The notes under the pieces are model-generated. The model saw only the letters and a list, made by a program, of their open reading frames with translations. It did not search any database and had not been told where the DNA came from. A DNA stretch of 64,000 nucleotides from Posidonia oceanica (Eukaryota > Streptophyta > Magnoliopsida > Alismatales > Posidoniaceae). The translations under genes were made by a program, and so were the position numbers. Positions 6,247 to 38,357 of this stretch are shown one piece after another. Numbering within the stretch: the stretch's first letter is position 1; each line of letters starts with the position of its first letter. Where the stretch lies: the NCBI GenBank assembly GCA_037176725.1, contig JAZBRS010000059.1:7365001-7429000 (forward strand), read 5' to 3'.

Positions 6247-6337
6247 TGTAACAGCTTTTGAGATGGAATTGGCTTTAAGGCATAATATGCCTCAGACAGC
6301 GGCGTATATCTTGGACGCAGTAACCTGGGCATCCAAC

Positions 6338-7813: not shown

Positions 7814-9087
7814 TGTGGATATGGGGTTTTGGAGGAGAAGAGGCTTGTTTCAGCTCTATTTGCTCTTTCTCGGGGTCCCCTTTTTGTATCCAACTCTGTC
7901 ACTCCACAGGTGATGGAATTGGTGTGATTGCCACTCTCGGTTCGCTTTCGTTGGCCCTTGAGACGCCTTGGGAGATGTGATATGGTTGTGGGTTCTGCAA
8001 CCTTGGGACACCACCTGCATTGCCCAAGGGTGCCCGTGCTTGGTAAGTTTCTTCTTCTTCTTCTTTCTTGTAAAACATATTTAAAGATGCGAATTAACAA
8101 AGTGTAGTATATGATTCAAAGCAAATAAAAAAAGTGACATGAAATAAGAAAAAAGGAAAAGACTTACTCGAGGGGTTTTAGCCCCCCGGTTGCAACTATG
8201 TATGAATATGACTAGCTACAACAATATGTGAAAGGAAAAATGATATGCAAACTATTAAAAAAGAAAACCCCCTTTTGATATGGATGGTATGCAACAGAAT
8301 ACAATACGCCGTTGGCGTGGTTGAAGATGGAAGAGGACTCTAGCTCTCTCAAAGTTCTTTCTCAACTCACTTGATTTCCACAACTTCTCTCTCATAAATT
8401 TCCCTCTAAAATTGTGTTCCACTCTCCCAAAAACCGTCCCCTAACCCTAGGGGGTACCCCTGCTTTTATAGAGGTAGGGAACAAATGCTAAGTCAGCTGA
8501 ATTTCCTGTTTCAGAAGTGTTATACGCTGGAAAACTAGCGTATAACGTTATAAGCGAGAGTCTCAGCGTATAACGACCTCCGAGACATAACTGTCAGGAT
8601 AAGAGAAGATTCCCCAATTAAGGAGTCAATAAGTGTGTTTAAACTTAGCTTTGATGGCTTTAACCGGTCAATAGGATCAAAGAAGGCAAAAGAATGATTT
8701 TTGGATTTGGCCAAATAAGGAAAGCTTTGGGTTGACTAGGTTGCCCTGTTGGACGCTGGAAAACCAGCGGCCAACGTTAGCCGCTGGTCCTGTTGGACGC
8801 TGGAAAACCAGCGGCCAATGTTAGCCGCTGTAGAACCAGCGGCTAACGTTGTATGCGAAGGAGCTAGCGTACAACACTCTTAGTCAGTTCAATTTCCAAA
8901 TTTGGTAGGACATGAAGAAACATTCAAGTTACCGACACTTGGGGCTTAGATAAGGATAACATTTTGGACTAAGGAGAAAACATTTGGCTTGAGTGAGACA
9001 TCTTGGATTGGGCAGAGGGCTTCTAAGAGCGACCTAATGCAAGAGATTATACTATCATGAAGGGAGTGCCAAAACGGAGTATCTACA
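7814..9087 (-). repeat. complete LTR of element B family, minus orientation
   Basis: Reverse complement of the family LTR: begins TGTAGATACTCCG at 9087 and ends CCACA at 7814. U3 carries AACGTT words at 8844-8850, 8773-8778 and 8544-8549, then a TATA box (TATAAAAGC, 8462-8470). It is bordered on one side by a primer site and on the other by a purine tract, so it sits between two internal regions, as in a tandem element. Confidence 0.88.
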
Positions 9088-9430: not shown

Positions 9431-11485
9431 ATGGCCTGCAACCTCAAAGACTTGAAGTTGACCCCGATTCAGGGGTCGACCATGAGCTTTTCGAAGATGA
9501 TGGGAACGTCGACCACGACGAGCCCGCTTAGAAAGGCTCCTACCTTTACTGATGGAGGTAACTCTAGGGGCATCCCCCTAGATGCTGCAATTAAAACTTT
9601 ATTTAATTCTACATTGTTTTCATTTCCTAGGAATAAAAGTAATTTACTTTCTATTTACAATAAGGGAGAGGATCATCATGTTAGTTCTAGCAGCTCGCGG
9701 TCAACTTCGACCACCGCTTCCAAAACTGTGCACGTGTGTCAATACACAGAGGCATTGCCTCAGGAGTTGGCTACTACTAACATGGTTTTCCTAGTAAAAG
9801 AATTTCACCGGTTTGGGAAGTGTGTAGGAATGGAGGCATATGAGCTGGTTAACTGCAGTGATGAGGAAGAAGATCAAGAGGCCGACTCAGATCTCCTTAA
9901 GCATCTCATCGACAAGTATGATGAGCAAACCAAAGCAGCTGAAGATGAGACCGTGGACGTCAATCTGGGAACCATCAAAGAGTCAAAACCAATACTCATA
10001 AGTGCAAGCTTGAGCCCAAAAGAGCGGGAGGAAATGGTCCAAGTCTTGAAAGAATTTGTGGATGTGCTGGCCTTCAAGTTCGAGGATATGCCTGGTCTAC
10101 AATCAGCCCTAGTGGAACACCTGCTTCCACTAAACTCTGGAACCAAACCCGTCAAGCAGAAGTTAAGGCGACTAAGGCCGGAACTCGCCCTTAAAGTCAA
10201 GGAAGAAATTGACAAACTCAATAAAGCGAAGTTCATCAGGGTGGTTGTGTACCCTAGTTGGGTCGCAAATATAGTACCAGTGGCCAAAAAGGATGGGAAG
10301 GTTCGGGTTTGCATTGACTATTGCAACTTCAACGCCGCCTGTCCCAAAGATGACTTTCCTTTGCCACATATTGACTTGTTAGTAGACAATACAGCAGGAT
10401 TTGAGATGCTATCTTTCATGGATGGTTTCTCCGGTTACAATCAGATTAAGCTAGCGGAGGAGGACCAAGAGAAGACGTCATTCATCACACCATGGGGGAC
10501 ATACTGTTATGTAGTCATGCCATTCGGTCTCAAGAACACCGGCGCAACATATCAGAGAGCAATGATGGCCATCTTCCATGACATGATGCACGATTGCATG
10601 GAAGTGTATGTTGATGATATCTTGGTCAAATCAAGAACAAGGGAGGCACACTTTGAGGCGCTAAGAAGACTATTGAGCAGGGTAAGGCAATATTAGCTAA
10701 AAATGAACCTAAAGAAATGCGTGTTTGGGGTAACTGCCGGGAAGCAACTGGGCTTCATCATCAGCAAAAGAGGAATCGAAGTGGACCCATAGAAGGCTAG
10801 AGCAATAGCACAGATGCCTCCGCCCCGAAACATCAATGAACTCAGGAGACTTATCGGCCGCTTACAGTTCATTAGGAGATTCATTTCACAGTACGTAGAT
10901 CGATGTAAACCATTTTATTAGTTATTGAAAGGAGGAAGGGAATTTACCTGGGATAAGAAAAGCCAGAAAGCTTTTAATGAACTCAAAGCATACCTCATGA
11001 ACCTCCCAGTCTTGTCAGCACCCATGTTAGAGAAGCCTTTGCTACTCTATGTGGTAGTCACAGCATCATCAATAGGGGTAGTGCTAGCTCAACATGATGA
11101 GGATGGAAAGAAGGAAAAAGCCATCTACTACTTGAGTAGAACCTTCCTAGGTTATGAAGAGAAGTATATGGCCATAGAAAAGCACTGCTTGGCCTTGATA
11201 TGGGCATCTCAAAAACTGAGACACTACTTCCTATCCCATAAAGTCTGTTACATCGCTAAGATGGACCCAATCAAATATATGTTCGAAAAGCCAGCCCTCT
11301 CTGAAAGATTGGTAAGGTGGCAATTCCTCCTCACTGAATTAGACTTGCAATCTGTGTCCCAGAAAGCGATCAAGGGGCAAGCCATTGCAGATCATCTGGC
11401 AGAATTACCGATAGAGGATTATCAACCAGTCCGAACAGACTTCCCGATGAGGAAATACTGGAAATACAGGCCATCGAGTCTCCCA
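9431..11485 (+). pseudogene. pol: pol: reverse transcriptase and first RNase H
   Basis: One reading frame with TAG codons at 10694, 10790 and 10919. RT core: VKQKLRRLRPELALKVKEEI, then VPVAKKDGKVRVCIDY (about 10270-10320), FMDGFSGYNQI (about 10418), and the catalytic YVDDILVKS (about 10608). From about 10935 comes the RNase H/connection region (FTWDKKSQKAFNELK, YYLSRTF, KHCLALIWASQKLRHYF). The enzyme copies element RNA into DNA in the cytoplasmic particle and removes the RNA strand. The N-terminal 250 residues are acidic linker. The start at 9431 is only the first ATG; the natural polyprotein continues from the G-patch that is now inverted. Confidence 0.85.
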
Positions 11486-11960
11486 CTCGACAATGGACTC
11501 TCAACTTTGATTGAGCACTCAACAGACAAGGGGCAGGCATCAGAGTAAGACTTCTCACTCCGGAAGAAGTTCTCATTCCTCGAGCTGTACAACGAAACTT
11601 CGCCGCAAATACCAATAATGTTGCAGAATACGAGGCCTTGATCCTCGGATTACGCCTAGCATTGGAGCTAGGGGCCAAGTGGTTGAAACTCAATGGAGAT
11701 TCCCAATTGGTTCTAAGACAAATTCTGAACAAGTATAGAACCCTAAATCAAAGGCTAGAAGAATACAAAGGCATTGCTCGCCTCCTATTGGCGCGGTTTC
11801 AGCAAGTGGTGTATGTCCACACCCTCCGGAGTCATAACCTATTAGCAGATGCTCTTGCTTCGCTGGCTTCCTTAATTGAACTCTCCATCAATATCCGGGA
11901 GCAAACAATAATGGTACAGCAACACGGGATACCTGCCATTGACTCAACCGAGAATGGACC
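11486..11960 (+). pseudogene. pol: second (archaeal-type) RNase H domain
   Basis: In a different frame from RT: WTLNFD, a TGA, then GAGIRVRLLTPEEV, NNVAEYEALILGL, NGDSQLVLRQI and SHNLLADALASL. The D-E-D-D acidic residues of an RNase H fold are visible. A second RNase H located between the ordinary RNase H and the integrase is a known marker of the Tat lineage. Entry and exit both need frameshifts (about 11486 and 11950), so the domain is now disconnected. Confidence 0.8.
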
Positions 11961-13280
11961 GTGAAGCTTAGACAGAAAGCTGGAGAATCAAAGGTAGGCA
12001 CGTTCGAAGTTTGCAACAACATAGAGGATGATGGGAACCCATGGTTCTTCGACATCCAGAACTACATTCAAGACGGGATCTTCCCCGACTACGCAACTTC
12101 ATATGATAAAGAAGCAGTTCGGAGGATGGCCACAAGATACTTCATGAGAGCCGGGGTCATTTTTAAAAGGTCTTTCCGTGGAATAGAGCTGCGTTGTGTC
12201 ACTTATGAGGAGGTTGGAGTCATCATCAGAGAAATGCATGAAGGCATATGTGGAGGACACATCAGCTCTCAATTCATGGCAAAAATGATACTGCGCGGTG
12301 GGTACTACTGGCCCACAATGGAGGCAGATTGCGTAAAAAAGGTGAAAAGGTGCAGGCAGTGCCAGATCCATGCAGACAGAATACATGCACCAACATCAGA
12401 GTTGAATTCGACTCAAACGGTGTGGCCCTTCTATATGTGGACATTTGATGTCGTGGGACAATTCGACACTGAAAAGCAGAATAGGTTCATCCTCACAACC
12501 ACTGAGTACTTCAGTAAATGGGCTGAAGCAGAAGCATTCACTGAAATCAAAGCTTCAAATCTTTGCAAGTTCTTGCGAAAAAATATTCTCTCAAGGTTTG
12601 GGATCCCAAAGAAATTAGTAGTAGACAATGACGCAATCTTCGTATCCCAAGACTTTAAAAAGTTCTATAAGAAGTTTAAGATTGAATTGCATCATTCATT
12701 GCCATATTACCCCTAGGGTAATGGGGAAGCTGAAGCTACTAATAAAACGTTAATCCAAATCCTTAAGAAAACGGTAGGAGGAACCAAGGGACATGATTGG
12801 ACAGATAAACTAATTGATACCTTATGGGCCTATCGAACATTCATAAGAACGCCTACGGACCAAACCCCGTTTGTGCTTACTTATGGTATGGAGACAGTAG
12901 TCTCATTCGAGGTCATGATTTCCTCATCTAGGGTACAACTCGACGATGAGATAACTGCCGAGGATAAGAGGCAATTATTAAATCTACGGTTGGATCTGCT
13001 AGATGAGAAGCGGTTGCAAGCAGCTGAGCATGCCCGCCTCTACCAAGAACGACTCGCAAGAGCATATAAGAAGAAAGTAATTGAACGTAAATTCAATATT
13101 GGTGAATGGGTGCTTAAAGAAATCCTTCCTCGTAAGCATGGGAAACTGAGACCGAATTGGGAAGGACCATATTAGGTGGTTGAGGCATATCCGAGCAATG
13201 CCTATTGTTTGGCCAGAGAGGATGGCACTAGGCTTGAATATCTCTGGAATGCACTGCACCTCAAGAGGTACTACCCTTGA
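11961..13280 (+). pseudogene. pol: integrase
   Basis: Single frame broken by TAG at 12714 and 13173. Zinc-binding region: H in GGHISSQ through CRQC (12226-12362). Catalytic core: FDVVGQF (first Asp, about 12445), VVDNDAIF (second Asp; the usual DNG has become DND), GNGEAEATNKTL (Glu, about 12723). C-terminal part: YGMETVVSFEV, then a basic helix and GEWVLKEILPRKHGKLRPNWEGPY, ending with a TGA at 13278. Integrase inserts the cDNA into chromosomes. The order protease-RT-RNase H-integrase assigns the element to Ty3/gypsy. There is no chromodomain. Confidence 0.85.
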
Positions 13281-14262: not shown

Positions 14263-15042
14263 AAATCTACCCAACCAATATTACCTCATGAAATTGATAA
14301 CAAGTAAGGCCAGTGATGCAAAAATTTAGGACATTTTACGACTCCGCGTCGTACTCGACCCTTTCTACTCAGGACGGTCACTTGGTATTTGCCTACGAGC
14401 TAAGACTGGGATCTCGAGAAGAGACAGTCCCTCGTCTGGCATATCATCTTTAGACAACAAAACTGAGGCCAATACTTGTTATTCAAAACCTAAATTTCCC
14501 TTAACTTCTCTATTGCATTAAGACTTCTTTTTTTCCATTCATACCATTAGGTTTGCTTAAAGTATGCATTGTATATAGGTTATTACCAAGTGTTCTGTAA
14601 CCGTTTTGATTTCACATTATTAAGGATGTTTCTGAGTTTCCAGAAGTCACTTTGGACTAGGGGCAATAATACCCCCTAGATGGATTAACAAATTTGCTGA
14701 GGTTGTGTAGGAGAGTAGTTTGGGGGCATTCAACGAGCAAATAGCAGCGTCCAACGTTGGACACACTATCTGAAGCGTATAACGACCAACAGAGGGATAT
14801 TGGACGCCTGATATCATGCGTCTTACGTTATAAGTGCCAATTTGAGCGTCTTACGTTTTAACTGTGACTTAAACGGCAGAATTTGGACAGAGGGCCCTTC
14901 ATCAAATATCAAAGCCACCACGGAGTATTTCTAAACTCAGAATAGTTCAAAACACATGAACAAGGATGAAAAAAAATGAAAGATATATTTATTCCCTTGA
15001 AGAGATACATGGTCCCCAAAAATAAAAGACTACAATAATTGC
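14263..15042 (+). other. spacer with a word cluster at 14747-14856
   Basis: No coding potential. At 14747-14856 the LTR words reappear (GCGTCCAACGTTGGAC, GCGTATAACG, TTGGACGC, CTTACGTTATAAG, GCGTCTTACG). Unlike the other internal clusters, this one lies 3' of the nearest antisense gene and I see no convincing TATA box next to it. Confidence 0.5.
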
Positions 15043-16388
15043 CTAGCTAATCATCTTCTTCCTTTTCCTGCGCAGCACGCTCGTCGCTTCAACCCACTCA
15101 TCGGGTTTGGGCAGCAGCTTTGAATACCACCTCCAGTGCGCATCCTCTCGTGGTAAGCAGCAAGTCGAGGGAGCAGTTGATGGCCCCTTTGAATCATAAT
15201 GGCGGTCCAAAGACAACCAAAGAGCCTGAATGTAGTACACCATTACTGTATCAGAGCAAAGACTGCGCTCCCAAACTCGAATGCGAGGAATAAAGCTCAG
15301 CCGAGGTGGCACCCCTTTCTTCTACCCCACCATCTCGAAGCAGCGATGGGAGTTGTATACCACAAAGTGGGTGGGCCCAATCAACTCCAACTCAACTGAA
15401 GAACCTCGCGCCTGGTGCTTATGATGAAGGGACGTGGAAGGCACGGAGATGTCAATAGGGGCAAAGGACAAGGAGCAAACCCTTTCCTCGATCAAATCTG
15501 TCTTCACAGGCCTAAGCCTCGGGAAATGGACCTGCAACCACCTGAAAAGAAGGAAAGGAGGGCCTACAAAATCCCCTCCGGTGGAAACGCTAGTCAGACC
15601 AAAATATGTAGCAGTAAGAATGGCAACTAAAGGAGAACGCCGGAAGTGTTCAGTAAGGCCTATCAAGAACTCTGTGTGATAGACATCCAAAGAGAAGTCT
15701 TTGGTGACAAATAAGGTGAGGCCTCCAATCAATAAATGCAGACACACCAGCAGCTAATCCTGAGAGGCAGAGTCCTCAATCTGCCGGAAGCTGAAGTACA
15801 GATGTGCCAAGTTAAGCCTGCGACCTCTAATCACTGGGAAGGTAGGCGGAATGGTGAAGATACGGTCTACGAATGTCTGCATGTTTGCTATTCCGTAGGG
15901 CAATGGGAAGTCAATATTTGGCCGGGCCGCTCCAATCTGAGTTACATCAAGCAGGCCATGAACATCCTCTACTAGGATTGTCACCTCACAAACTCCAAAG
16001 AAGAAAGTATGAGTCTCGGGACTCCAGAAGGTGCATGAGGCATGAAGCAGAGGCCAGTCCAAGTTTGTGCCCAATAAGTCCAAAAGTCCATCAAAGCGGG
16101 TTCGGGCCAAAACAGACCTTCTTTCCCGAGCCCAAAGCACAAAGTCCTTCACCCAAGTAGAGTAGTAGGGGAAGTCATTATCAAAGCAGGGTGTTTTGGT
16201 AAAGTTGAGGATTTCCTGCAAAGAAATTCGAAAGCATTAGGAGCAAAAGAGAGTGAAAGGACCAATGAAGAAGATCATACCTTCCCTGTTTTGATAAGGG
16301 ACATCATATGCCCTTCAATCTCTTCCAGAGGTCTTGCAACACCCTTCTTGTTGTGCATGAAAACGTTGGGAACTGAATTAGAAGCCAT
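15043..16388 (-). pseudogene. antisense cargo gene 1: plant-mobile-domain protein
   Basis: Two exons on the minus strand. Exon 1 (16388-16281, 36 codons) begins MASNSVPNVFMHNKKG and ends at a GT donor; exon 2 (16215-15043) follows an AG acceptor in phase 0. Together they give 426 residues broken only by two TAG codons (15756, 15324). Exon 2 has the hallmark of the plant mobile domain (PMD): WPLLHASCTFWSPETHTFFF, then EVTILVEDVHGLLDV, then VYHTEFLIGL and GPPFLLFRWLQVHFPRL. The C-terminus is basic (RRKRKKM). PMD proteins derive from transposons; their biochemical role is unclear. The intron survives because the gene is antisense to the element's genomic RNA. A paralogue lies at 20834-22191. Confidence 0.75.
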
Positions 16389-16446
16389 GAAAGCAATAGA
16401 AAGGAAAGAGGGCAAGTGTGCATGAAAATCCAAGGGGTGGCCGGGC

Positions 16447-16700
16447 TTTTATAAGCACAGGAGGGCCGTCGGAAATCCGTCACGCAGGCATTGAGAGAAT
16501 TTCACAACATTCGGGAAGATTAGCCAAGAACAGGAAAGGAAAGAAAGGATTCTGGGTTCGCTTCGTTGCACGTGAGATAGAGCGCATCCAACGTTAGCCG
16601 CGCGATATGAAGTGTATAATGTTTAGAGCTGCTGCTGGCGTTGGACGCAGAATTTGAAGTGGATAACGTTGACCCCACCAGATAAGGCGTATAACGTTTT
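16447..16700 (-). promoter_or_regulatory. predicted promoter of cargo gene 1
   Basis: On the minus strand, a word cluster (ATAACGTT at 16691, GGATAACGTT at 16661, GCGTTGGACGC mirror at about 16637, ATCCAACGTTAGCCGC at 16586) is followed by a TATA box (CTTATAAAAGCC, 16445-16456) 60-70 bp before the ATG at 16388. The words are those of the element B LTR U3. Confidence 0.6.
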
Positions 16701-17176
16701 ATCAGTGACTTAAGTTACTGAACTTGGCTGGATTGCCCTCTAATCCGTGATTGAGTTGCATGAGCCTGTTTTACCCACTCCAGAGGTTTTACTAAGTTGA
16801 AATACACGTGTGAGCGTGGTTTTCATATTTTTTTGGACATCCGGGCCAGTCAGAATCTCTGGTTGCTCGTTTCATCAAGTAAATGGCTCATTAAGGCATT
16901 GACGACTTCAAAATTCAATTTTTAAGCTTCCAGGTGAAATCTTTCCTTACAGCTATGTCATTTGCATACTAGTTCACTTGAGTACGCTGGTTTCAAGTTA
17001 ATTTGGGATAAGGGTCATTATTTTACAATATTAGTCACTTAAGCTCATTTTAGCCTTGAGAAAGTTAGTTTAAAAGAAGTATTTGACAAGTTTGCTGAGT
17101 GTGCAGAAATCTATATCATTTCAAAATATACAATCGCTTTACAAGATCACTGGGGCATACCCCTAAAGTAAAGAAG
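16701..17176. other. spacer between cargo genes 1 and 2
   Basis: A/T-rich, no recognisable gene. It holds the 3' end of cargo gene 2 (stop at 17177) and upstream flank of the gene 1 promoter. Confidence 0.5.
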
Positions 17177-20100
17177 CTAAAGAGCACTCTCTCCCTCACC
17201 CTCGGGAGCTGAAGCTGGAGCCGTAGAAGGAGCGGTAGGAGGACGAGGCGACTGTCGAACAGAAACGCCTGATGGAGCCCTGGAGACGGACCGAAAGTGG
17301 CAGCTACTCGACCAACGGCTCGGTATAGAAGGAACGGGCACCCCGAGCCTAACACCAGCCGTAAAGGCAAACCTTCGGTAGTGCCGTAGCTCGAACTCAA
17401 GCTGGGAGATAAGCCCTGCCATGCTCTGAGGAGAGAAGCAATCAAAATGTCAGATGCAAGCAAGGACATGGAAGACGTAAAGAAGTGCTGAATTAAATCA
17501 TACCGCCTGAGATTGGGCAATCTCGGTGTCCCTGTCGGCAACCTGCTGCTCCAGCTCTCGGATCCGAGCATTGCTGGTGGCAACTGACCCCTCTAGCTCC
17601 TCCAACCTCCCGACAGAGCTGGCAACTATGAAGTCACCAGCCCGCTCCCTCAGCTCGCTCTCTAAATAGGCAACTTACAAGCAGTGGTGTCAGAACCAAG
17701 GGAATTTCAAAGGCAGAAATAAAATAAAGGTATTTTTACCTTCTCCTGGAGATGGGAGATCTCCTCTGAACAGTCTGGAGGAGGAGCACTACTCGTCGAA
17801 AGCTGAAAAGAAAGATTCAAGTCAGTTACAATTCATAGCCAGACTATAAAAGCTACATGTAAAGATACCTGAGAGGTAGAGGCACGTAGGCGCTCAATCT
17901 CTCCGGTCAAAGCTGAGAGCTGCTGAGTCAGGTAGCGCTCCTGCTGAGCCTGCTCATCTACTGCCTTGAGCTACAAAAGAAAGAAAGCAAGTCAGCCAAA
18001 TTGAATTAACAGTCTACAAAAATAAAATTCAGGAGCTCACCGCTATCTCCAGCTGGGCTCGGTAAGACTGAACCTCCTCCAGTAGATCCGCACGAGACAC
18101 CACCGCCTCCCCGGTATCTGTGTCCCCCAAAGGAAGGTTCCCGCGCCCGAAGAAGTGGGACTGGTGGAAGATCATCAAAGAAGAAAACTCCCGGTCTATC
18201 CACTCGGCCCACACCGCCTCGTCCTCCTCTGTGGCACCCGTCGAAGCAGGAGAACCACGACGGGCCCAGTCCAAGAGCTGTGGACCGTAGACGTCCACCC
18301 AATGACGAGCACGGCTGCCCCCGCCGCGTGTCTCTCGCCATGCTCAGTGAGGAGGAGGTAGAGGCTGAGCCTGCCGGCGCCCCAGCTGTCATAACGCCCT
18401 GCCAATCTGCTGGAAGTGATAGTGGTTCCAGCAGTGGATCCATACATTCCGGTCAAAAATGACCTAATCACGGGCAATCTCGGGGACGTCCGCATGCTCT
18501 CCCTCAGCATATGGACGCCAAATCACCTGAAGGGAGCAATACATGTCAGCAAGCAGCATAAATGAATAAACAGAAGCTGAAAAGTCAACAGAAGCAAGTT
18601 ACCTGAGCCGGGACAAGAAGCTCGAAAAGCAGACGATCGACATAGCGGTTGTTATCTGCGGGCTCGAGGGCTTGCTCAGCAGCGGTCCAGAACAGTCCCC
18701 GAGGAAAGGGGACACCAGTAGGAGGAACCGGAGAAGGGGCAGGTTGTAGAAAGGCGAAGTGGTCCCACACCGACATCTGCACGCAAAACAAGGAAGCCTT
18801 TAGCAAAAACATAATATCTGGTGCAAGCTCAAAATATGCAGATTTTACCTGAAGGAATGGCAGGTTCCCGCCTACCTGGCGAGAACTGCCGTCAGTGAAG
18901 CGGAAGAGGGTGGAGTACAAGTACGCCAAGCTAGCCGCACCCTAGGCGTACTCTCCCACGTGCTCCAAATCTGCCAGGAGAGGAAGGAACCTCGCCGACA
19001 GCTTTGAGGAGGAGTGCGAAAAGAGTACTTCCCCGAACAGTACTAGGAGGAAGGTCCGCAGCTGCTGGTCGGCCTCCACGCCTAGTCCGGCTACTGTCTT
19101 TGCCAGCTCACTAACTCGGCGAACCGCGGAAGTAATTACCACAAGTTGCTCCCCGCTCATTACTAACTGACATCCGACAAGCTCCTGCGCTAAGGCTGAG
19201 TAACCCGAGCGCACCCGCCTCGTCACTGGTCTGCCCGTGACCCGGAGATCGGTCAGTCGCAACATGTCCTCAAGGGAGAGGACAAACTCGCTTGCCCTCG
19301 TAACGATCGAGTTCGTGCGGAAGTTCCACCGCTCTGCGACAGCCTCCAGGAACATCGAACGGAGGGGAAAGTCCGGGATGGACAGGAAATGCTCAAACCC
19401 CATCTGATTCAGACGCTCCTGCTGGAAAGTAGCCAACACGGCGTAGGATCGGTGGACCTGACCCCAGTAGCAACGGGTCACGGCCGGTGCTCGACTCTGC
19501 AAACAAGTGAGAGAATCCTCAGTCAAGATGAAACAACTGAATAAACTGAAGGGAAAATGAAAAGATATCTACCTGCCCCCTCGAGTTAGTGTGGCAGTGG
19601 CGTACTCTGACTGAGATGCGTCCCTACGTGGTCCCGATTCCTGCACCTCGTCCCGAGGGATCTGCTCTCGCCAATAGTCCGGGGGATCCCTCGCATCGCC
19701 CTCCGCCTCCCGTCGATAGAAGTCGACCATGTTCCACCACCAGTCGTTGTCCTCACCAAATTGCGCGAGGAAGGGGTCGACCGGCCTCGCCTCTGGCACC
19801 TCCGTGGGCCCCGCCTCGTCCAGGCCAACCTTGGGCCTCGTCTCCGAGATCGTCTCCTCTAAATCCTCGTAGCTAAAAGAGCTACTGGAACCAGAGTCCG
19901 CCTCTATTGTCATCTCTACAGCCTGCCTGGAAGTTGCCTCAGTCTCCGCGGCATCACCGCTGGCCGTCGCCTCAACCTCCACGGCATCACCATCAGCCGC
20001 CACCTCAGCCTTCGCGGCATCACTACTAGCAGCCCCTGTTTCTGATCCTGTAGCCACGGCATCACCACTAGTCGTCGCCTTAGCCCCTGTGACGTCACCG

Positions 20101-20453
20101 CCAGCCTTCGCCACCTCCACGACAGTTCGGCCGGCCTCCACGGTCGCCCCAAGCGCCACCCCCGTTTTAGCAACCTCAGCCACCACTCCCACTGTGGAAG
20201 AACCGGCCCCCACAGGCGCAGCCCCGCCTACCATGGCCCTGCCGGCGGCCTCCGTAGCCCTCGCCGTCGTCTCCCCCACAGGCGCAGCCCGGCCTACCAT
20301 GGCCCTGCCGGCGGCCTCCGCAGCCCTCGCCGTCGTCTCCCCCACAGCTGGACCAGTAGCCAGCATCTCCGACGAAGGCTAGCCGAAGGGCGAAGGCCCC
20401 GTCCGAGCTCGTTTCGTCATCCAGGTGTAGAAATGGGAGATCCTCTTCTCCAT
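17177..20453 (-). pseudogene. antisense cargo gene 2: long plant-mobile-domain/coiled-coil protein
   Basis: Eight exons with GT-AG borders keep one frame: 20453-19573, 19494-18849, 18776-18603, 18526-18041, 17970-17869, 17802-17740, 17659-17504, 17425-17177 (2757 nt, 918 residues). Exon 1 is an Ala/Gly/Thr/Glu-rich low-complexity tail. Exons 2-4 form the PMD: ERWNFRTNSIVTRASEFVLS, then LEDMLRLTDLRVTGRPV, ASLAYLYSTLFRFTDGSSRQ, SVWDHFAFLQP, VIWRPYAEG. Exons 5-7 are heptad-rich coiled coil (QQLSALTGEIERLRAS; RIRELEQQVADRDTEIAQ). Five stops interrupt it: TAG at 20379, 18942 and about 18466, and TGA twice in exon 4, all explainable as C-to-T changes. ATG at 20453 or 20420 is possible. Function unknown; a nuclear role is only a guess. 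Confidence 0.7.
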
Positions 20454-20560
20454 CGGAGTAACCTTGCCGGAATGAGATGGAAGATCGCTAGAGAACTCTC
20501 TGGCGCCGGAGAAGAAGAAGAGAAGAGAAGCAGGTGACCACCCGTGGCGTAGGACGAGGG

Positions 20561-20720
20561 TTTTATACCATTCAATGTTATCCGCGTGAATTTCAACGTC
20601 CAACAGATCGGGAAGAAGGAATGTTGTACGCGCCCTATGGCCTGTCCAACGTTTTGAGAGTTAAAATGTTATCCGCTGCTTTCCCAGCGTACAACGTTGG
20701 TCGCTCCAGTTTTTGCGTAC
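20561..20720 (-). promoter_or_regulatory. predicted promoter of cargo gene 2
   Basis: Minus strand: words at 20688-20720 (GCGTACAACGTTGGTCGC mirror), 20641-20660 (TCCAACGTTTT), 20596-20605 (CAACGTCCAAC), then TGGTATAAAAC (20560-20570), about 110 bp before the ATG at 20453. Confidence 0.55.
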
Positions 20721-20833
20721 AACACTTTGAGTTCAGGGAAGTGTTCTGAATTTTGATGCTCTCATACAAATTCATTTAAAAGAGACAAAAGAGACGCAGT
20801 AAATTTTATTGATGATAAATGATACATTTCTAA

Positions 20834-22191
20834 TTACATTTTCTGTCTCTTTAAAGGAATTTCAATGAACAATTTAGGCCGCACGCCCTCGTACCAAGCG
20901 TCATAAGTAGTAAGAGAGATGGCTTCGCGGTACGCGTTCGATTTCTCCCATGTAGAAAGGACTCGGTTTTGCCCCTTCCCATCCCAAGTGCCAGCCTGAT
21001 AGAAAACCTAAATGATGTCCCCAGGGGTGTTTCTCAAGCGCGGGAGAATAATGTCGGAGAAGTGAGGTAAGGGAGGTATAGCCCGAGGAGTACCCAGCAT
21101 CGAGAAGCATCGCTGAGGGTTGTACCTTACAAACTCGGTCACCTCAATCAGCGTCAGGAAGTACTCTGGGTCGGACATTGTCCTGAAAGACAAGGGAGGA
21201 CTGAAGGAGTCCATCTGGGGCTTGACCTCAGAAGTACATAAGCGGCGAATGTACTCCTCCAGGGGAAGGCTAGCATTGAAAGTAGGTAGAAGAAAATGCT
21301 CCTCTAACTAGCGCAGAATTAGGAAGGGCGAGCCGAAGAATGGTCCCTCGAGGCAGACACTGGATAAGCCCCGGATAGTGAAAGCCAAAACAGACTGACT
21401 CAAACATTTCTCTGGAATGTGAACGCAGATACACATGAGCTCAGCATGGTAGGCGCTAATGGTTAGGGCCTCATTTGGGAAGAGTACCAGTCCCCCGATC
21501 AGAATGAAGACACATTTCAAGCAGGAAGCCTTGGAGCGGATGCTGTCGCGCTGTTTCCAGAAAAATTTCTACAAGGAGGAGAGTTTGATACAACCATCTA
21601 GCACCAGGTCCTCTGGCACAACATTAGAGCCAAAAATGCGCTTTAAGAGGGAAAAAGAGCCTACCACCCCGATTGGTAAAAGGTAGGCATCCTTGCAGTA
21701 AATGGATGGGTCGGCCTGTCGAGTACCTAAAAGGGCGCTCACCTCCTCCAAAAGAATAGTCAAGTCCCCTGAAAAGGAAAAGAATGTGTGAGTCAAAGGA
21801 TTCCACAGGCCGCAAAGGCCGAAGAGCACCTTCCAGTCAACAGGCTGCCGAACTAGCGAAGAGCTTGACAAAGACCAGCCTCTTCTAAGCACTCCCGATA
21901 CCTCTTCAAAGCCCAAGAGCGGAATTGTTGAACCCAGTTCAACTGGTAGGCTTTCGAGTCATGGTTGTTATTGGTAGAGGATAGGGGCTACGAAGTAAGA
22001 AAAATCAGCGGAGATAAAGGAATACGAGAATGGGAGTATGAGGTAGTAATGAAAACAGAAATTACCTTCTCATGCACCAAAAGGTTCGCCAAATGATAAG
22101 GTGTAGCCTCCAGCCAAAGTTGCATCATGTCGGAAGGAGAGGACAAGACAGCCACTTGGAAAGCATGGCATGGGATATCACTCAAATCCAT
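20834..22191 (-). pseudogene. antisense cargo gene 3: plant-mobile-domain protein, paralogue of gene 1
   Basis: Exon 1 (22191-22066, 42 codons, MDLSDIPCHAFQVAVLSSPS...) and a long exon 2 (21987-20834) split by a phase-0 intron, the same plan as cargo gene 1. Exon 2 contains DWKVLFGLCGLWNPLTHTFF and GDLTILLEEVSALLGT, aligning with WPLLHASCTFWSPETHTFFF and EVTILVEDVHGLLDV of gene 1, and AYHAELMCICVHI matching VYHTEFLIGLTEH. One frameshift near 21850 and TAG codons at 21571, 21310 and 21010 break it; at 21310 gene 1 has Trp. The C-terminus ends at TAA 20834. The two paralogues flank cargo gene 2, suggesting duplication inside the element. Confidence 0.7.
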
Positions 22192-22282
22192 GAGGAGAAG
22201 CACAATTCCGAGCAAGTAAAAAAAATCAGTAAAGAAAGGAAGATCGATGTTTGAATTACAAGATCCATGCCAAGATGGGGTC

Positions 22283-22466
22283 TAATATAGGCCGTGGAGC
22301 CTTCATCAGAATGGAAACCCAAAGAAAATCGGAGATTTACTGCCAAAACGGTGGTGCTTGAATAGGAAAGACAGCAGCCTGTCTCGCGACGTTATACGCA
22401 GCCGTCTTGGCATCCAACGTTAGCCGCGGTGTTTTACCCGTCCAACGTTGAATGATAAAACTCCAG
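22283..22466 (-). promoter_or_regulatory. predicted promoter of cargo gene 3
   Basis: Words at 22388-22399 (GACGTTATACGC), 22412-22428 (ATCCAACGTTAGCCGC), 22440-22450 (TCCAACGTTG) and 22465-22473, then a weaker TATA-like CTATATTAGA (22281-22290) about 92 bp before the ATG at 22191 on the minus strand. Confidence 0.5.
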
Positions 22467-22561
22467 CGTCCAACAAATCAAAGCAAAATTGAGAGCAAAT
22501 CAGAGAGCCCCGGAGTACAACCGGGCCAACAAAGCAAGCAAAGCCAAAGAAGTATCCTTTT

Positions 22562-22963: not shown

Positions 22964-24394
22964 TGTAGATATCCCATTTTCACATTTCCCAGAGTTTATA
23001 GAGGACAGGAACTTCTGAGGCACCCAGATCACATAACTAAGGCTTTAATAACACATTTTCCAAAGTTTTTCGTGACTTGCTTAAAAACAACACTTGACTC
23101 TACTTAGCTCAAGGACGCTAGCTGTGGCAGAGCTGACTCGCCCAAACTAGTGGCAAGTTTGAGTACCTTTGAGCACACTTTTCCACTCAAATCCATGGCA
23201 GATTTGAGTTAAAGAAGATGTTTTTATGATTTCATGAGATATCTGAAGTTTTACGGGCTTTTAATCGAGTTTTCTGGATAAAACTTAAAAGACAGGGTTA
23301 AAAATGCAAAAGACGTTGCTAGTTGCCAACTGGAGAGGCGACTGGGATAGGCGCCATGTCAACAGGCGACTAGCCTAGGCGCCACTCTAAGCGGCGACTG
23401 ACAGTCGTGGCCTCCATTAACCGAATCGAATGGTTATTTTTGGCGGTTGTGTTCCACCATCCCCTCGACAGCTAGGCGCTAACCTAATAGGCGACTAACG
23501 GTTGCGGAACTGCTACGATTATTTCCCACGATCCCATTGACTGTTAGGCGCCAACCTAACCGGCGACTAACGATCGTGGCTCCCGTCAACCAAATTTCTA
23601 CGGTTTTCCACACGTTTGCTTGGTTGGTTGCTAGCCTAAGTCGCCTACCCATGCGGCGACTGGCCATAACTGCCAATTTTTCTAGAAATTTCTATTTGTT
23701 AACCACCCACACCCCTTCGAGTTTATAAATAGACCCTGTGGGTCAGTGTTTGAACCCCTAGTCATTCTTGGAGAGAGACACCCCTCAGTCAGGTCAGAAA
23801 GAAATCTTCTATAGGTTTTAGGGTTTTGAGCTTCCACCTTCAAACAGCTAGGGTTTCCAAACCAGAAACCCTAGTCTCCACCCTCTATCTAGAGAAAAAA
23901 CCTAGATCCCAGAGATCACTACACTCAACTACGATCCCAGAGATCTTGAGCCAAGCCAGAGCTCCGACCGTGCCTTCACTTCTACTCTACTGCAAACAGC
24001 ACGAGGGTGAAGGGAGTATTCTTCTAATCTAATTTCCCATTTCATATTGCATTCCTTAAAATATGACACATAGCATATGCATGCGGGGAACAACTCCTGG
24101 CTAGTATTAGGTTTAATTGCTTATGTTATTTTCTGTCTACTTTGATTAGCATTTACTACACTTGAACTAATCTTATGTTATTTTCATTTGTTTTGAAGGA
24201 AAGGAAATTGCTTACATAACATGAAGGACCCACTGGACGACATCCTGCCGTTGATCCAGTGATTCGAGTACTCACAGCTTCATCATCTCTCCCAAGGTGT
24301 CTTGTCTACCCAAAGGCGAGTGGCGATCACAAAAGTTGACGACGTACGTGGAGGCGCAGTCATCTTCTTAAACACCCCCAAAAATCCATCCACA
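22964..24394 (+). repeat. 5' LTR of element C
   Basis: U3 holds a cluster of GGCGACT and TAGGCGCC words (23335-23670), then a TATA box (TTTATAAATAG, 23722). The downstream part carries TGGCGATCAC at 24321, a second copy of the primer-site core. The LTR pair is visibly diverged: the 3' copy has small deletions near 31315 and 31915. Confidence 0.9.
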
Positions 24395-24399
24395 GTCTC

Positions 24400-24419
24400 T
24401 GGCGATCACGGTGGGACTC
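24400..24419 (+). other. primer-binding site of element C
   Basis: TGGCGATCACGGTGGGACTC, 5 nt after the LTR. It starts with TGG as expected for pairing with a tRNA CCA end; the tRNA is not identified. Confidence 0.75.
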
Positions 24420-25721
24420 GATTTTAGCCAACCTCCGTGTAATGTATGGAAATCCCTTTCCTTCTTCCCTTTTATTTTGTAGATCTAAGTGTTGTTTTCA
24501 GTTTGGAAATCGTGCGAGTAGGTTTTTCATAATACCCCAAACTTTTTGTTGTTGTTGTTTTTTTTTTTTACTGTTTCTGACGTTATTAAAACCCCTGGCT
24601 TCGACAACTGGGACTATTTTACTAAGGTCTGGAGACTTTGGCACTGAGCCGCCTGTCCAAGGAGCGCCTGTCCAAGTCGCACCTCTAGGAGCGACTGACA
24701 GGGGCGCCACTGTAACAGGGGACACATCCTGAGTCTGTTTATACTGCAGATTATTACTGTTTTTTGTAATTTGTGCTGTATTTTTAGATTTGCAGTAGCA
24801 TTAAAAAAAAAAACAACTCTTCCTGTCCACTGTGTTTTAGTTTTTTTTAACGATTTCTAGGTTTGCTTGTGTCCACCCTTAAGGTGGAAACTAATTCGTT
24901 TATATATTAAAGTAAAAGTTCCTTGAGGAAATCTTCCTCAAGTTAGAACAATTAACCTGAGTGAACCCGGGCCAGTGTAAGTCGCTCTCTCATACTCAGT
25001 GTTAATTGTGATAGCTAGATCAAGATCTTGAGGTGTCCTAAGTAGTTATTTTTGACTCCTCCTTCTCCCTGAGTCAAAAATAACCCTTAGTAGATACTTG
25101 CACTTTAATATTTTATGTTTATTTACTATTTTGTGGTTTGATTAAGTGCCGAACCTAAGGACAGAATCTTAGGTAGAGGGTCCCTCTTTAGAGAGACAAG
25201 CCCCCCATCTAGGCCCTCTTGGTGGACCCTGAAGAAGATCAAAGAGTGGTACCCATTAGCCCAAATCCCATTAATTGTAAACATGCAGGTTTCAACTAAT
25301 TGACTAACTAATTACTCAAACAAATAAAAATCTACGGTCTTCCTGCAACTTGTATTTTTTTTTTTTCTGTTTGTTGCACGGTCTATCAAAGACAGACCTT
25401 GGCTGTTGGAAGAACAGGGACTGAGACGCCTGTTCAGAAGGCACCTCGCTCAACCGCCCGATCAACCGGTGACTTGTTTGGCCGCCTGTCACACAAGCGA
25501 CTACAGGGAAACGCTTCGTTCAGTGTGCCTTGTTTGCAGGGATTTGTTTATCTCCATTAACAGGTTGCAGAAACATCAGAGCAGCAGCTACTTACTAATA
25601 TTTTCACTTTCATTTAATCGAGTCTGTATTAAGTAGTGTTAATCGAGTATGTAATCTCCTTCTTGAATCCTCTATAATAGTTTGGAAAAAAAGAAAAAAA
25701 AAAGAAAAAGACAATCTTGCA
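24420..25721 (+). other. leader of element C
   Basis: Non-coding. Two clusters of GC-rich words recur here (24645-24720: GCCGCCTGTCC, GAGCGCCTGTCC, GGAGCGACTG, GGGGCGCCAC; and 25420-25510: GACGCCTGTTC, GGCCGCCTGTC, AAGCGACTAC). They echo the U3 words of the same element. An A-rich tract precedes the gag ATG. Confidence 0.55.
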
Positions 25722-27992
25722 ATGGAAGCTTATCAACAAAATCACAAGCACATCAACATGACATCTGCCTCAACCTCTACCTCTACGGTGCAACCAAGCA
25801 TGGACCCCAATAGGTTCTTATTTAGAGCTTCAACTCCACAAGCAGAGGAGCCAGAAACCCCTAGTTTCTCACAAGAAATGGGCCGGTCATTTGAAGAAGA
25901 AAGAGAAATAAGCCACTCCCTACCTTGGAGTACCCCGTTTGAGCATACAATTCCCGAGATAACCTCCCAAGTAGTGCCACCTACATCGACCGCTTCCTAT
26001 CTGTCTGAGGAAGCGACTAATGAGATCTATCAACCCCTGGCACGACACCACCATCCCTCACTTAGGAACCCGCAAACCTCACATGCTCACCAACCTTCTT
26101 TCCCAAACTACCACCAAATCCCATTAACCACGCCCACTCACACATGCACCACGACACTAAACCCCACTATAAATTTCCCTACTCAAAATTCATTCACACA
26201 ATACCATGCAACACCAACCTACCCTTACATCCATCCAACTCCGCCATATACAACCCAATACATACCACAACTTCCCGCTAATACACAATACTACCCTACT
26301 CCACTTCCATCATCGTTCTTCCATCCACAACAATCTCCTGCTAACGCACAATCATACTACACTCCACATCAAACCCAACCCTTCTCTCCACCATACGACC
26401 CTCTATCACCACCATTCCACCAAACACATGGGCACCTAAACCAGGGACAACAAGCTGTGCCAGGACAGGACATCAAGAGAATGATCTCTGAGGCACTCAC
26501 AGAGGCGGGAGTTACATCTAAAGCACCGATAGGGTTTGACACGTCGAAATTTCCTCATTTTGTTCTTCCACCTGGATTCAAAATGCCAAAAATGAGGAAA
26601 TACACTGGAATAGAGGATTCAAGGGGCCATCTAGCCACATTTGCCATGGACACTCTACCCTATCAATATGATAACGGGTTTATAATCTACCTCTTCTTTA
26701 AAAGCTTAGAAGGAGAAGCACTGGGATGGTTCAACACGCTCACAGCGTATGATCTCAGTGACTTCTAGATGGTCCAGGAGAAATTTCTGCGCCAATATGT
26801 CCATCGCATCCAGCACAAGCCTACAATAAGCGACCTCCTCGCTGAAAAGATGAAATCTGATGAGGAGTTCGCCACTTTTGCAAGTAGATGGAGAGACATG
26901 GCTGCAAGATCTAAATGCTATATTCTTGAAAGCCAAGCAGTCGAGATCATCGCCCGAAATACTACAGGAGCACTCAGAACAGGGCTACTGATGAGTGACC
27001 TCCAAACATACCCTCAGCTACATGAACACGCTGCAAGGATCCTCCGTCACAAAGAGGATCTACCATTCTTAGAGCTCGAGGGAAGGGGCAAAAAGAAGGG
27101 CACTGGCTATACACTTGAAGGGATCACTGGTGACATGGCACAGGTCTCAATCCAGCAGAAGCAGAAGGGCCTATACCAGTCTGAGCAATCACTCCTGGCC
27201 AAAGGGCAACTGACCCAGTATCTGCTAGAGCAGTACCTGAGCCAATCAGCACAGTACCAGGGGCAGTTAGTGCAGTCAATGCAGCACCAACAACAACAGC
27301 CACCTGATTATCCAATACATGCCCAGCAAAGATACCAGGGGCAACAACAGGGGCAAAGGAACTACCATAACGTCCCTCCTCCACGAAACTACAAAGGCCC
27401 TCAGAGGCAAAACTATCCTCCGCTTCCTGAATCAATCTCTGATACATTCAGGATGCTGGTTGAAAGTGGAGATCTGTAGCTCCCAGAACCTTGTCCAAGC
27501 TATCCAAACACTAATATGGCCAAGCACTGCCCTTATCATTAGAACAATGGGCACACCCTTGAAGAATGCTTCACTGTCAAAGACAAAATACACAATCTGA
27601 ATGACAAGGGTGATATCATGTGGTCTGAGCTCAAAGCCAGACTAAAGGCGGCTCAGGAAGAACAACAGGTGATGCAGATACACCAAGAGCCCTTGTTCAA
27701 CTACCGAGTAGATCATGCAGATGTAGAGATCATCTTATCAGCTGCTCGGGCTGAGTTCGCATCCATCCAGTGCATACCAGCAGATCTAGAGCAGAGCCCA
27801 TCCAGCAAAGGGGACCTTGATTCCCATGTACTCTAGGACTTAACAAAGGAAGGCTGCTCACCCATCTATGATGAGTACATTGACTGGTGCAATGAAAGGG
27901 CAGTGGACTCTCAGACGTTCCAGGACATAATTCATGAAAGCCAGTCGCCCATCTATGATGAATATGCAGATTCAGACTGGTATAAAGCATAA
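25722..27992 (+). pseudogene. gag: gag of element C
   Basis: One continuous frame of 756 codons from ATG 25722 to TAA 27990, broken only by four TAG codons (26766, 27477, 27540, 27834). The N-terminal 230 residues are Pro/Thr/His/Tyr-rich and encoded by an almost G-free stretch. The capsid core follows (FPHFVLPPGFKMPKMRKYTG, YLFFKSLEGEALGWFN, FASRWRDMAARSKCYI), similar to the gag at 4283-6246. A Gln-rich linker leads to a knuckle KHCPYH-NNGHTLEECF (CX2HX4HX4C, with a TAG inside it). The end is acidic with two SPIYDEY motifs. The TAGs sit where Gln is expected, so this Gag could have been intact recently. Its presence without pol suggests cis-packaging with helper enzymes. Confidence 0.85.
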
Positions 27993-29395
27993 GTTGCACT
28001 TGGTTCACTCTGCCAAGCTCTCCAAGCAGCACAAGCAAGAGCTGATCCTCCTCCCAAGTCACCCGACCCTACAAACAGACACACTAGGGGCAGTCATGAG
28101 CACTATGGTCGAGGAGAGGTTACTACAGAGCACATCGGCAGCCACACTTCAAGAGGAGGGGGAAATCTGATAGCCTCACTCTGAGACAAGGCCATCAGGG
28201 ACACGCTGCCTGGAACGGGTCAGGACGAGTCCAACTCTGACCCGCTGAAAGCAAGGACAGGGCGCAAACCAAAAGAAAGACAAGAACATGCGCCACAAGC
28301 ACCTGACTGCTACACGCCAGGGGCAGACTTCTGCAGTCACCCCTCAGGTAAGCCCCCTCATCTGGGAAGGGAGGTGCAAGGTTCCACTGAACCCGACTGA
28401 GGGCAGTGGTTAATTTAATTAAAACTTGTAAATAAGACATTTTTCTTTCTGTACCCTATTTTCCTTTATTTATCTTTATTTATCTCTAATGCTAAGTTAG
28501 ATTATAAGTAATGAATAATAAAAATAACTGATGAGTGTGGACTATACCCAACAACTTGGAGGCATTTAGTAGAGTTGCCAAGATATTATCTAAGATTTCC
28601 CAAGCAGAGACCGTAACACACAGGGAAAGTCCAACCATTGGTTGCAACAACCTAAAGGCATATTTAGATCCGTGGGAGTTACATACAATACACCCTTAAT
28701 TAGCATGCCAAAGTCTAGAAAGAACCAAAGACTGAGTCCTAGCCAAAGGAAGAAAGTTGCATCCTAAATAGAAAAGAAACTGAACAACTAGGGTAACCTC
28801 AACCTTGTCCTGTCTGCACATACACTTGCACGGGGAGGTAAGAGAAAGGCAAGCTCGGAGCAAAGGCTCATGGTACGAACCGCTTGCCAATTAACTTAGA
28901 CAGCGTCTAGAAAAGATGGTAGCAAAAACTGCCCAAACAGAGAGGAAAGAAGGCAGCAAAAAAGCTGTCCAAGTGAGGAACAAATGAAAAGAGACAGTAA
29001 AAGAAACTGTCAAACTAAAAGAGGTTAGCAAAGAGCTGTCCAAAGAGCGGAAAATGAACATGGCAAAAGTTGTCCATGAATCTAAAGCATAAATCCTAGA
29101 AAGACGCATAAAGGGCCAAGTAAGGGCAAGTGGAATTCAAGACTTGAGCCAAAGTCGAGAGCTTACTGCACTTGAAGCCTCCTCCACCTATCTTACTCAC
29201 AGACAAGGGGCAGGGAATCCTAGAAGTTCAGGGATTGATTAAACGAAGGAAACAACAATCAAACCAAGGCTAGTATGAGGTTCTAAGTTCTCAAAAGACA
29301 AGGCATGTTAGAAGGAAAAAGTTCTCTTACCCTAGATAATACAAGGCAATACTACAAGGTCTCTAAGTAAGACGGTTGTGACTGCACTCATCAAT
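27993..29395 (+). other. post-gag spacer of element C
   Basis: No gene. 28900-29100 has purine-rich units (GGCAGCAAAAAAGCTGTCC and variants) homologous to the post-pol spacer of element B. Confidence 0.5.
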
Positions 29396-29640
29396 TCGAA
29401 AACTACCAAAAAAATAGTAAAATCCGAAAAATACCAAAAAATAGTAAAATCCTAAAAATACCAAAAAAATCAGAAAAAACTAAAAACACCAAAAAAATAG
29501 AAAATACCAAAAATAATAAAAAAAAAATCAGAAAATCCAAAAACTACCAAAAAATTAGAAAACCCAAAATACAAAAAATAGAAAATCCCAAAATTCAAAA
29601 AATTAGAAAATCCAAGAAAACCAACCAAAAGAAGCACCAT
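29396..29640. repeat. A-rich tandem array in element C
   Basis: Degenerate units of CTACCAAAAAAATAGTAAAATC and AGAAAATCCAAAAA type. Same relative position as in elements B and the giant element. Confidence 0.8.
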
Positions 29641-30903
29641 CCACCCTACATACAAGTGAAAACTTAGTAAGTAGGGAAATTGGAATTAACTTGGCCGGTG
29701 ATGCAACAATCATTTCACCTCAGATTTGGAGATAGCATCCTACTCAAGTGTGTCTCACGGCTTGGGTGCGTTTTCTCAACAAAGTTATTGCTTCAGTAAT
29801 AATCTTTAGAGCATCTACGGATGACTCACAATCGACATCTACTGGACTCCGGTTTTCCATCTCTCAGCTGAGGCCAAGACTAATTCCCTCCACCTAGTTC
29901 TCAGGCGTGTTGATTAAGGGATTACTTTATCTTCTGTACAAGTATAACTTAGTCAATCGCCCTAGGAACTGGGAAAGGTTCACCTGTGATTACTAACATC
30001 TTTTGTTAAGTGTGCAGGTATACATCTCAACATAAAGAATAAGCTCATGTCTAGGGGGCTCATATAGTGTGCAAAGGCATACCCACTTTGACTAAGAGGC
30101 AAACCCCGGTTTGGCAAAGAAGGGTTCACTCCCACACTCGGTTCTTTAATCATAGAACTCCTTTACTTGCCAAATCGAGTTGTAGGACGACGGTCCTTTC
30201 CAGAGAGTGCTGGTCACACTCGAAGACGGAAAACACTTGACCACAACAAATTGCATTCATTCATCTTGCATATGTCCATATGGGTTGGGAACAACCGTAC
30301 CCCACCGGCCTAACCTAGCATATGGACCATTCATTGCATCGTATGTGGCATTTGCATTTGTTTGCTTGAATCATTTATCCATGCATTTTCTCATATCATT
30401 GGAAGTGGAGCACGGACGGAGCCAAATGTTCTTCAAGAGTGTTAGAAACCCTTAGGACATGTGATTCTCCTAGAGCCAACCCAGTTCCTACCAATCCTTC
30501 TATCGATTCCAATCCGAGTAAAATCTCAAACATGACACCACAAGAGCACTCCTTTTCGATCATGTAAGGGTCCTGTCCCACGATTTCCTCCCTAGCTTCT
30601 GCCCTATTGAAGTACATCTCTACATGGTTGACCTGGTCTTAACATCGGTTGCGACAAATAGCCCCGACTTGACCCCTCCATGCCTGAGTCTTCAATATGA
30701 CGGCAATTAATCGAACCACCGGCCGATCGGCAATCTCCCGACACCGAGTCAGTTTACCCCTTCTTCCTTTTTTATTATCTTCCTTCATCCCTTGTGGCGG
30801 ATTGTTTGAGATAGAGCTCCCCTTTTCAGGAAATGCACAATAGGACATTTGTTCTTACCTTGGACTCAATCTTGTTCCAAGATCAACTCCAAGGAGGGGC
30901 ATC
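29641..30903 (+). other. 3' internal end of element C with polypurine tract
   Basis: Starts with GGCCGGTGATGCAA, matching element B at about 14310. At 30190-30380 it carries the cGACnGTCC...ACAAATTGCATTC block also seen in B (33078-33150) and CATTGCAT-type words. Ends CCAAGGAGGGGCATC before the LTR at 30904. Confidence 0.6.
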
Positions 30904-32321: not shown

Positions 32322-32369
32322 GTCATGTTTTTATTTTCGACCCACTTGGGCAATCCCCTTGGTAAGTCT

Positions 32370-38332: not shown

Positions 38333-38357
38333 ATGAAAAGATGAAAAACTATCCAGT

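Follow-up and report, generated by a model that had tools for sequence, protein, structure and literature searches.

Do the long terminal repeat (LTR) of a plant retrotransposon and the genes that it carries in antisense orientation answer to a common regulator? The role of antisense accessory genes in plant retrotransposons is called unknown in two published accounts (PMC7264820, PMC11963269; here and below, statements on cited papers refer to the parts of their texts that were available). The question is raised by a 64,000-nt stretch of Posidonia oceanica DNA (contig JAZBRS010000059.1, assembly GCA_037176725.1; genome size 2.96 Gb), called the window below, which holds a Ty3-gypsy element of apparent Ogre/Tat type with three antisense PMD genes. 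The original prediction on this DNA held that each of these genes is preceded, in its own orientation, by AACGTT-cored words and a TATA-like box, that the same words form U3 of the LTRs, and that, as T-box targets of bZIP factors, they could let the element switch four transcripts together. We find that one module is indeed shared by U3 and the antisense gene promoters; the bZIP reading is not supported. The arrays of this module are probably cis-regulatory binding sites for one dimeric protein, which would co-regulate the LTR and the antisense cargo transcripts.

The 28-bp unit and its places in the window

The repeated unit is a 28-bp inverted repeat, GTTRNNCGC-N10-GCGNNYAAC, composed of two 9-bp half-sites in inverted orientation with 10 bp between them. 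Scored on its 14 fixed positions and called at 12 or more, it occurs 34 times in the window, against 0.3 expected. Perfect half-sites (GCGNNYAAC, both strands counted) number 49, and a looser half-site, GCGNNNAAC, is found 52 times, compared with 14.0 +/- 4.1 in 200 Markov-1 sequences. Half-site pairs at most 70 bp apart fall at a few spacings: inverted at 19 bp (9 pairs) and 47 bp (9), on the same strand at 28 bp (13) and abutting at 9 bp (5), every remaining spacing being seen at most twice. Pairs on this lattice of 9, 19, 28 and 47 bp number 36 against 1.5 in jittered data (maximum 10 in 5000 runs) and, with all LTRs left out, 13 against 0.56 (maximum 6 in 5000 runs). Family regions hold 40 perfect half-sites: 37 face an inverted partner across the N10 spacer (at least 5 of 7 positions; background 0.013), 18 have an abutting partner, two have the abutting partner alone and one has no partner; the nine perfect half-sites outside family regions have neither kind (0/9).

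Units occur singly or stacked head to tail, and AACGTT arises because two 28-bp units abut: the word is the seam between units rather than the unit itself. The AACGTT words do lie where they had been reported, including the clusters in the LTRs at 1085, 7814-9087 and 33684, and their over-representation (21 in the window against 10.7, sd 3.0, in 100 dinucleotide shuffles, one of which reached 21) together with the ACGT core speaks for T-box sites bound by bZIP factors. Against this, the 38 half-sites that lie off seams match the motif as well as the 36 seam half-sites (0.925 and 0.901), with GTT continuing in 5 of the 38, and the single units at 826, 6310 and 20577 have no AACGTT at all; we regard the bZIP reading as highly improbable. 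Nor can the words be said to follow the orientation of each gene: the unit is inverted-symmetric and therefore has no orientation of its own, and direction is given by the TATA box.

Within the window, three LTRs have units in their U3, each of the three antisense PMD genes has units upstream, and others lie in the gag leader, at about 14.7 kb and at 826. The arrays, in window coordinates, are:

1298-1381 and 1555-1610: arrays of LTR A; TATA at 1675
8519-8574 and 8748-8875: the two U3 arrays of LTR B, of which the second includes an overlapping 44-bp duplication; TATAWAR 49 bp downstream, minus strand
33896-33979 and 34152-34207: arrays of LTR C; TATA at 34272
16565..16695: four units upstream of gene 1; TATA (TATAAA) at 16448, minus strand; also present in copies L011 and L012
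20577..20723: four units upstream of gene 2; TATA (TATAAA) at 20562, minus strand
22391..22474: three units upstream of gene 3; weak TATA-like TATATTAG near 22290
14728..14854: four units scoring 11, 13, 12 and 11 of 14, downstream of gene 1
6310-6337, 6691-6746 and 7468-7523: leader arrays of element A, between the primer-binding site (PBS) and gag; the unit at 7468 scores 11

The TATA boxes are thus at the places originally given for them. A single unit with an extra half-site lies at 826-882, just outside LTR A, which has no polypurine tract (PPT) there. The stretch below the 14.7-kb array on the minus strand, 13000-14574, yielded neither a PMD relic nor another gene.

The density of perfect half-sites, in regions that take in 46 of the 49, is 11.7/kb in U3 of LTRs A, B and C (21 in 1.8 kb) and 7.9/kb within 450 bp upstream of four antisense start regions (14 in 1.8 kb). 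It is 2.0/kb in the gag leader, 0.43 in element D, 0.23 in gag-protease, 0.09 in the gene bodies of element B (1 in 11 kb), 0.07 at 35-64 kb and 0 in R-U5 of the LTRs, and no unit scoring at least 12 of 14 falls in the tested gag-protease and gene bodies. The concentration in U3 and upstream of the antisense genes that had been predicted is therefore real, although not exclusive; four transcripts are too few, since arrays are found in the gag leader and at 14.7 kb as well. LTRs A, B and C, the near leader array and genes 1 and 2 each have a TATAWAR box no more than 200 bp downstream of the units on the expected strand, so that, with the LTR counted once, 4 of 7 arrays have one on the expected side (chance 0.053 each) and 0 of 9 on the opposite side.

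What is shared between these places is the module and not its surroundings. In 54 pairs of LTR and gene or leader modules, 84% of fixed positions are alike, a value partly inflated because units were picked by their fixed positions, as are 54% of the free positions of the half-sites; the spacers and flanks, whose values are unaffected by this, agree at 34% and 28%, where random DNA gives 25%. After masking of the units, none of the gene or leader regions aligns with U3 of LTR B in blastn at E 0.01.

The element, its antisense genes and its copies

The LTRs, genes and domains to which the arrays belong are:

1085..2001, plus strand: LTR A, a fragment, aligned with LTR B
7814..9087, minus strand: LTR B, termini TGTAGATACTCC...CCACA, TATA at about 8470; aligns with LTRs A and C
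33684..35033, plus strand: LTR C, PPT identical to that of LTR B
9431..12716, plus strand: reverse transcriptase (RT), two RNase H domains and integrase of element B (Pfam)
15046..16386, minus strand: gene 1, PMD (E 4.6e-6, below the Pfam curated cut-off), with in-frame stops
17110..20453, minus strand: gene 2, PMD (E 1.1e-15; next piece 0.0038), several likely introns
20837..22281, minus strand: gene 3, PMD (E 1.8e-4, below the Pfam curated cut-off), paralogue of gene 1
22964..32324, plus strand: element D, nested within the tandem repeats of element B; LTR pair 94% identical

LTR B has a PPT, AAGGAGGGGCAATC (9101-9088), on its outer side and a decayed PBS at about 7810-7792. The LTRs were at one stage taken for a protease-RT spacer with an antisense promoter, because their TATA box points in the direction opposite to the neighbouring gag or RT frames; termini, PPT and PBS ruled this out and bear out the original assignment as LTRs. 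We read LTR B as the 5' LTR of a minus-strand gag-protease element, element A, and LTR C as the 3' LTR of element B, which on our reading runs on the plus strand from RT (9431) through integrase, the antisense genes and tandem repeats, interrupted by element D, to LTR C; the joins near 9320 and 2001 we read as rearrangements. Element D has termini and a PPT like those of LTR B, a cleaner PBS-like TGGCGATCACGGTGGGA, which may be complementary to tRNA-Arg, as in Ogre elements, and flanks GCCAT / GTCAT. The U3 of this sister family (23440-23600; 31381-31441) contains GTTAGGCGC, an 11-bp spacer and GCGACTAAC, inverted and upstream of a TATA box, a hint that the spacing may differ between families (11 bp in D, 10 bp here). 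A G-patch domain (E 1.4e-11) lies at 1943-2527 on the minus strand, in the frame that follows the element A protease. The two RNase H domains, RT_RNaseH at 10925-11548 and RVT_3 at 11515-11898 (E 5.2e-16), are a feature of the Tat/Ogre type, and with PMD and G-patch they are consistent with published Tat/Ogre-type Ty3-gypsy elements (PMC9289625).

Genes 1-3 follow the plus-strand integrase on the minus strand and precede the 3' LTR, which is the layout of Retand-type elements. Genes 1 and 3 share 36-38% identity in the pieces compared, and pieces of gene 2 match neither at E 0.01. Read on the minus strand, the first intron has GT-AG ends both in gene 1 and in gene 2. The C-terminal part of gene 2 appears coiled-coil-like (weak coiled-coil match, 17501-17674), and its PMD exon is related to 23 database sequences, 56-85% identical, on contigs of at most 2.5 kb. 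TRP28 (PF04195) gave no match at E <=0.1 or <=1 in those antisense pieces that were scanned, and the Pfam scans of pieces revealed no DNA-binding domain besides PMD. An AlphaFold model built on the PMD alignment had a mean pLDDT of 42 and was not used. Elsewhere in the window, 38300-50100 holds long repetitive frames resembling a minisatellite array, 42740-43300 and 53830-54350 are near-duplicate stretches, and 56492-60090 (plus strand) has frames that, on visual inspection of their translations, resemble a Ty1-copia element (gag, integrase, RT).

The module recurs across the genome, where a 14-base word, GCGTACAACGTTGG, is found 7158 times (3636 + 3522), against 3 (1 + 2) for the reversed control. 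We read the first 48 of 100 places listed for this word, all on a single contig (L003-L010, L014-L053), and three wider stretches around places read earlier (L011-L013; L006 and L012 are one place). The word is present in the LTR and in gene 2, and the 48-place sample therefore favours these two: units scoring at least 12 number 170 in LTRs, 25 in gene 2 promoters, 8 in leaders and 3 in gene 1 promoters, with a further 6, in L008, L014 and L015, left unassigned. In L011, which is 83-91% identical to the window, arrays precede all three genes, with three units at gene 3, three at gene 2 (TATA about 10 bp on) and four at gene 1 (TATA about 113 bp on). L012 has the order gene 2, gene 1, LTR, three leader arrays, gag, its leader arrays lying between LTR and gag as in the window. 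Searches with the gene 2 and gene 3 promoters scored 40 of 3161 and 40 of 3793 candidates, the window among them in each case, and between the two lists there are 15 same-strand pairs 1.5-1.75 kb apart, the window's own included; copies of the gene 1 promoter came from the window, L011 and L012 only (L006 being the same place as L012). Gaps between perfect inverted half-sites in L011-L053, a count biased by its 40 word-chosen places and three wider stretches, are 10 bp in 79 cases, 38 bp in 46 and 11 bp in 6, with other gaps up to 60 bp seen at most 5 times each. Scans of viral contigs with integrase, motif and PMD gave no related locus, and two bacterial loci (L001, L002) from a contig motif scan were taken as chance, about one match being expected by estimate.

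Once the search word is excluded, half-site columns outside CpG are less variable than the rest in 37 LTR rows (0.039 against 0.067, p 0.017), whereas non-CpG spacer columns vary at 0.105-0.118. The proximal array, which was not used for finding copies, varies at 0.017 (p 0.0003), and 27 of the 37 rows keep five units scoring at least 11. Four leader rows give 0.070 against 0.115 (p 0.04). The expectation that the words would be more conserved than their surroundings thus holds for U3 of the LTR, but not for the promoters of genes 1, 2 and 3 in the copies examined, as set out below.

What may read the arrays

We propose that a dimeric DNA-binding protein recognises every 28-bp unit as a double site. 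Arrays of such sites, placed upstream of the LTR and antisense PMD TATA boxes and in the gag leader of an Ogre/Tat-type Ty3-gypsy element, would then be bound, and presumably activated, by one trans factor, so that genomic RNA and antisense cargo mRNAs are co-regulated; a single DNA-binding protein could in this way serve all transcripts of the element. Because the sites contain CpG, binding may also be methylation-sensitive; CpG observed/expected is 1.42 in units and 0.58 in the remaining window, partly since the motif itself contains CpG.

Several observations weigh against this proposal. No TATAWAR lies within 200 bp of the gene 3, 14.7-kb and far leader arrays. In the promoters, non-CpG half-sites are as variable as other columns in 40 gene 2 rows, a few places being represented twice (0.032 against 0.031), and show no effect in 22 gene 3 rows (0.023 against 0.029); ten gene 2 rows from nine places, mostly word-chosen, give 0.068 against 0.064, and four gene 1 rows from three places 0.047 against 0.038. 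With CpG columns included, the fixed positions are the more variable (gene 2, 0.064 against 0.037; gene 3, 0.054 against 0.033), and LTRs A, B and C compared alone show no clear excess (variable columns 9/70 fixed, 68/447 otherwise). The promoter test is weak because the close copies were chosen for their likeness and, once inserted, have for the most part drifted; that selection acts on the gene promoters is unproven. To the same side belong the inflation of the 84% agreement noted above and the unit pairs in L008 (591-646) and L015 (279-334), which occur without the tested LTR, leader or genes. The integrase in L015 has an identity of just 29%, so the module may also be present in another family.

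If a protein does bind, it may come from the host or from the element. That a host dimeric factor reads the arrays, the element having multiplied host-type sites and so tied LTR and cargo to a host programme, is a serious candidate, if short of an even prospect. Spaced inverted half-sites are usual among host dimeric factors, and the unit pairs of L008 and L015 without family features, like the similar half-sites of sister family D, speak for it; yet we know of no plant factor with this consensus, and nearly all occurrences of the 14-base word in the 48 places read, a biased sample, fall within the family. A narrower form of our proposal makes the factor element-encoded: a PMD cargo protein or its partner would bind and lift silencing or drive transcription, as VANC does. 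We hold this tentatively and as rather unlikely. An element that has extra nuclear-type genes and arrays of a short motif in its non-coding DNA is reminiscent of the VANC system (PMC5735166), the arrays precede the cargo genes themselves, and the 11-bp spacer in family D could mean family-specific readers, but PMD was the sole DNA-binding-type domain in the Pfam scans of pieces, and VANC21 sites share one orientation where the window units are inverted. More specifically, by analogy, the antisense PMD protein might bind arrays at LTR, leader and all cargo promoters in a positive loop that overcomes silencing, an element-owned switch like VANC yet of separate origin, with the spacer (10 bp; 11 bp in D) helping to set the family; such a switch seems doubtful to us.

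Two alternatives remain. Arrays without present function, arising as tandem inverted repeats from slippage or from an old copy of the LTR promoter and amplified with the element, would accord with the neutral decay seen in the gene-promoter copies and with the commonness of tandem repeats in this element class (PMC11963269). They would not lead one to expect fixed positions and spacing that persist while spacers and flanks differ between sites, repeated placement just upstream of TATA boxes, or U3 half-sites less variable than spacers, and we judge this explanation unlikely. Hairpins in RNA or single-stranded DNA, acting for instance in packaging or dimerisation of genomic RNA, might be suspected from the LTRs, where arm covariation is seen (agreement at 42 of 48 positions, with 25.0 after shuffling, in three LTR copies that are not independent). 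Outside the LTRs covariation is absent (32 of 63, with 32.9 after shuffling), which argues against an RNA hairpin in general, and U3 proper and the antisense upstream regions are not all in one RNA; we rejected hairpins as a general explanation and consider them extremely improbable. Binding of one dimeric protein to the arrays is the reading that we carry forward.

Relation to known systems

Antisense genes with a promoter of their own and PMD domains in Gypsy elements are already known, the former from Grande, whose antisense gene 23 is transcribed from its own promoter (PMC7264820), and the latter from a survey of plant Gypsy elements (PMC9289625). Grande, RIRE2 and Retand belong, like the window element, to Ty3-gypsy, and they too carry antisense genes and tandem repeats in the interval from pol to the 3' LTR (PMC7264820, PMC11963269). 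Transcription was described for Grande, whereas here TATA boxes and GT-AG intron ends are read from sequence; TRP28 (PF04195) occurs in 97% of Retand clusters (PMC11963269), whereas the window element has three PMD genes and no TRP28 in the pieces scanned. The available parts of these accounts describe no cis module common to LTR and antisense promoters (PMC7264820, PMC11963269), and our partial search of the literature found no report of one. PMD and G-patch, both present here, head the list of the three commonest atypical domains in plant Gypsy elements, in an account whose available text contains no promoter analysis (PMC9289625). The host PMD proteins MAIN and MAIL1 have been tied to a 'DOWN' promoter motif and to silencing of transposable elements, their binding being unproven (PMC7156037).

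A defined, spaced module of LTR and cargo promoters offers a handle on the role of the antisense accessory genes, as a short binding probe and a countable motif. If an element protein binds it, retrotransposons would own an anti-silencing switch; if a host factor does, it would identify the host programme under which a family with so abundant a 14-base word in this genome becomes active.

The closest likenesses come from outside the plant retrotransposons. In the VANDAL/VANC system of sequence-specific anti-silencing, in which an element protein binds the motif and removes methylation (PMC5735166, PMC10398659), as here, a short motif, of 9 bases, forms dense arrays in non-coding DNA, and the sites change between families. 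VANDAL, however, is a DNA transposon, and VANC21 motifs stand in one orientation with binding shown (PMC5735166), whereas the window sites are inverted and their binding is inferred. The Tax-responsive elements of bovine leukaemia virus are likewise repeated enhancer units in U3, with CpG and methylation-impaired binding, in a virus that also produces antisense transcripts (PMC10236774). There, the LTR units are 21 bp long and of CRE type, and antisense transcription starts from a TATA-less promoter in the 3' LTR that uses other cis elements (PMC10236774); the window element instead has separate internal antisense promoters that carry the LTR's own module.

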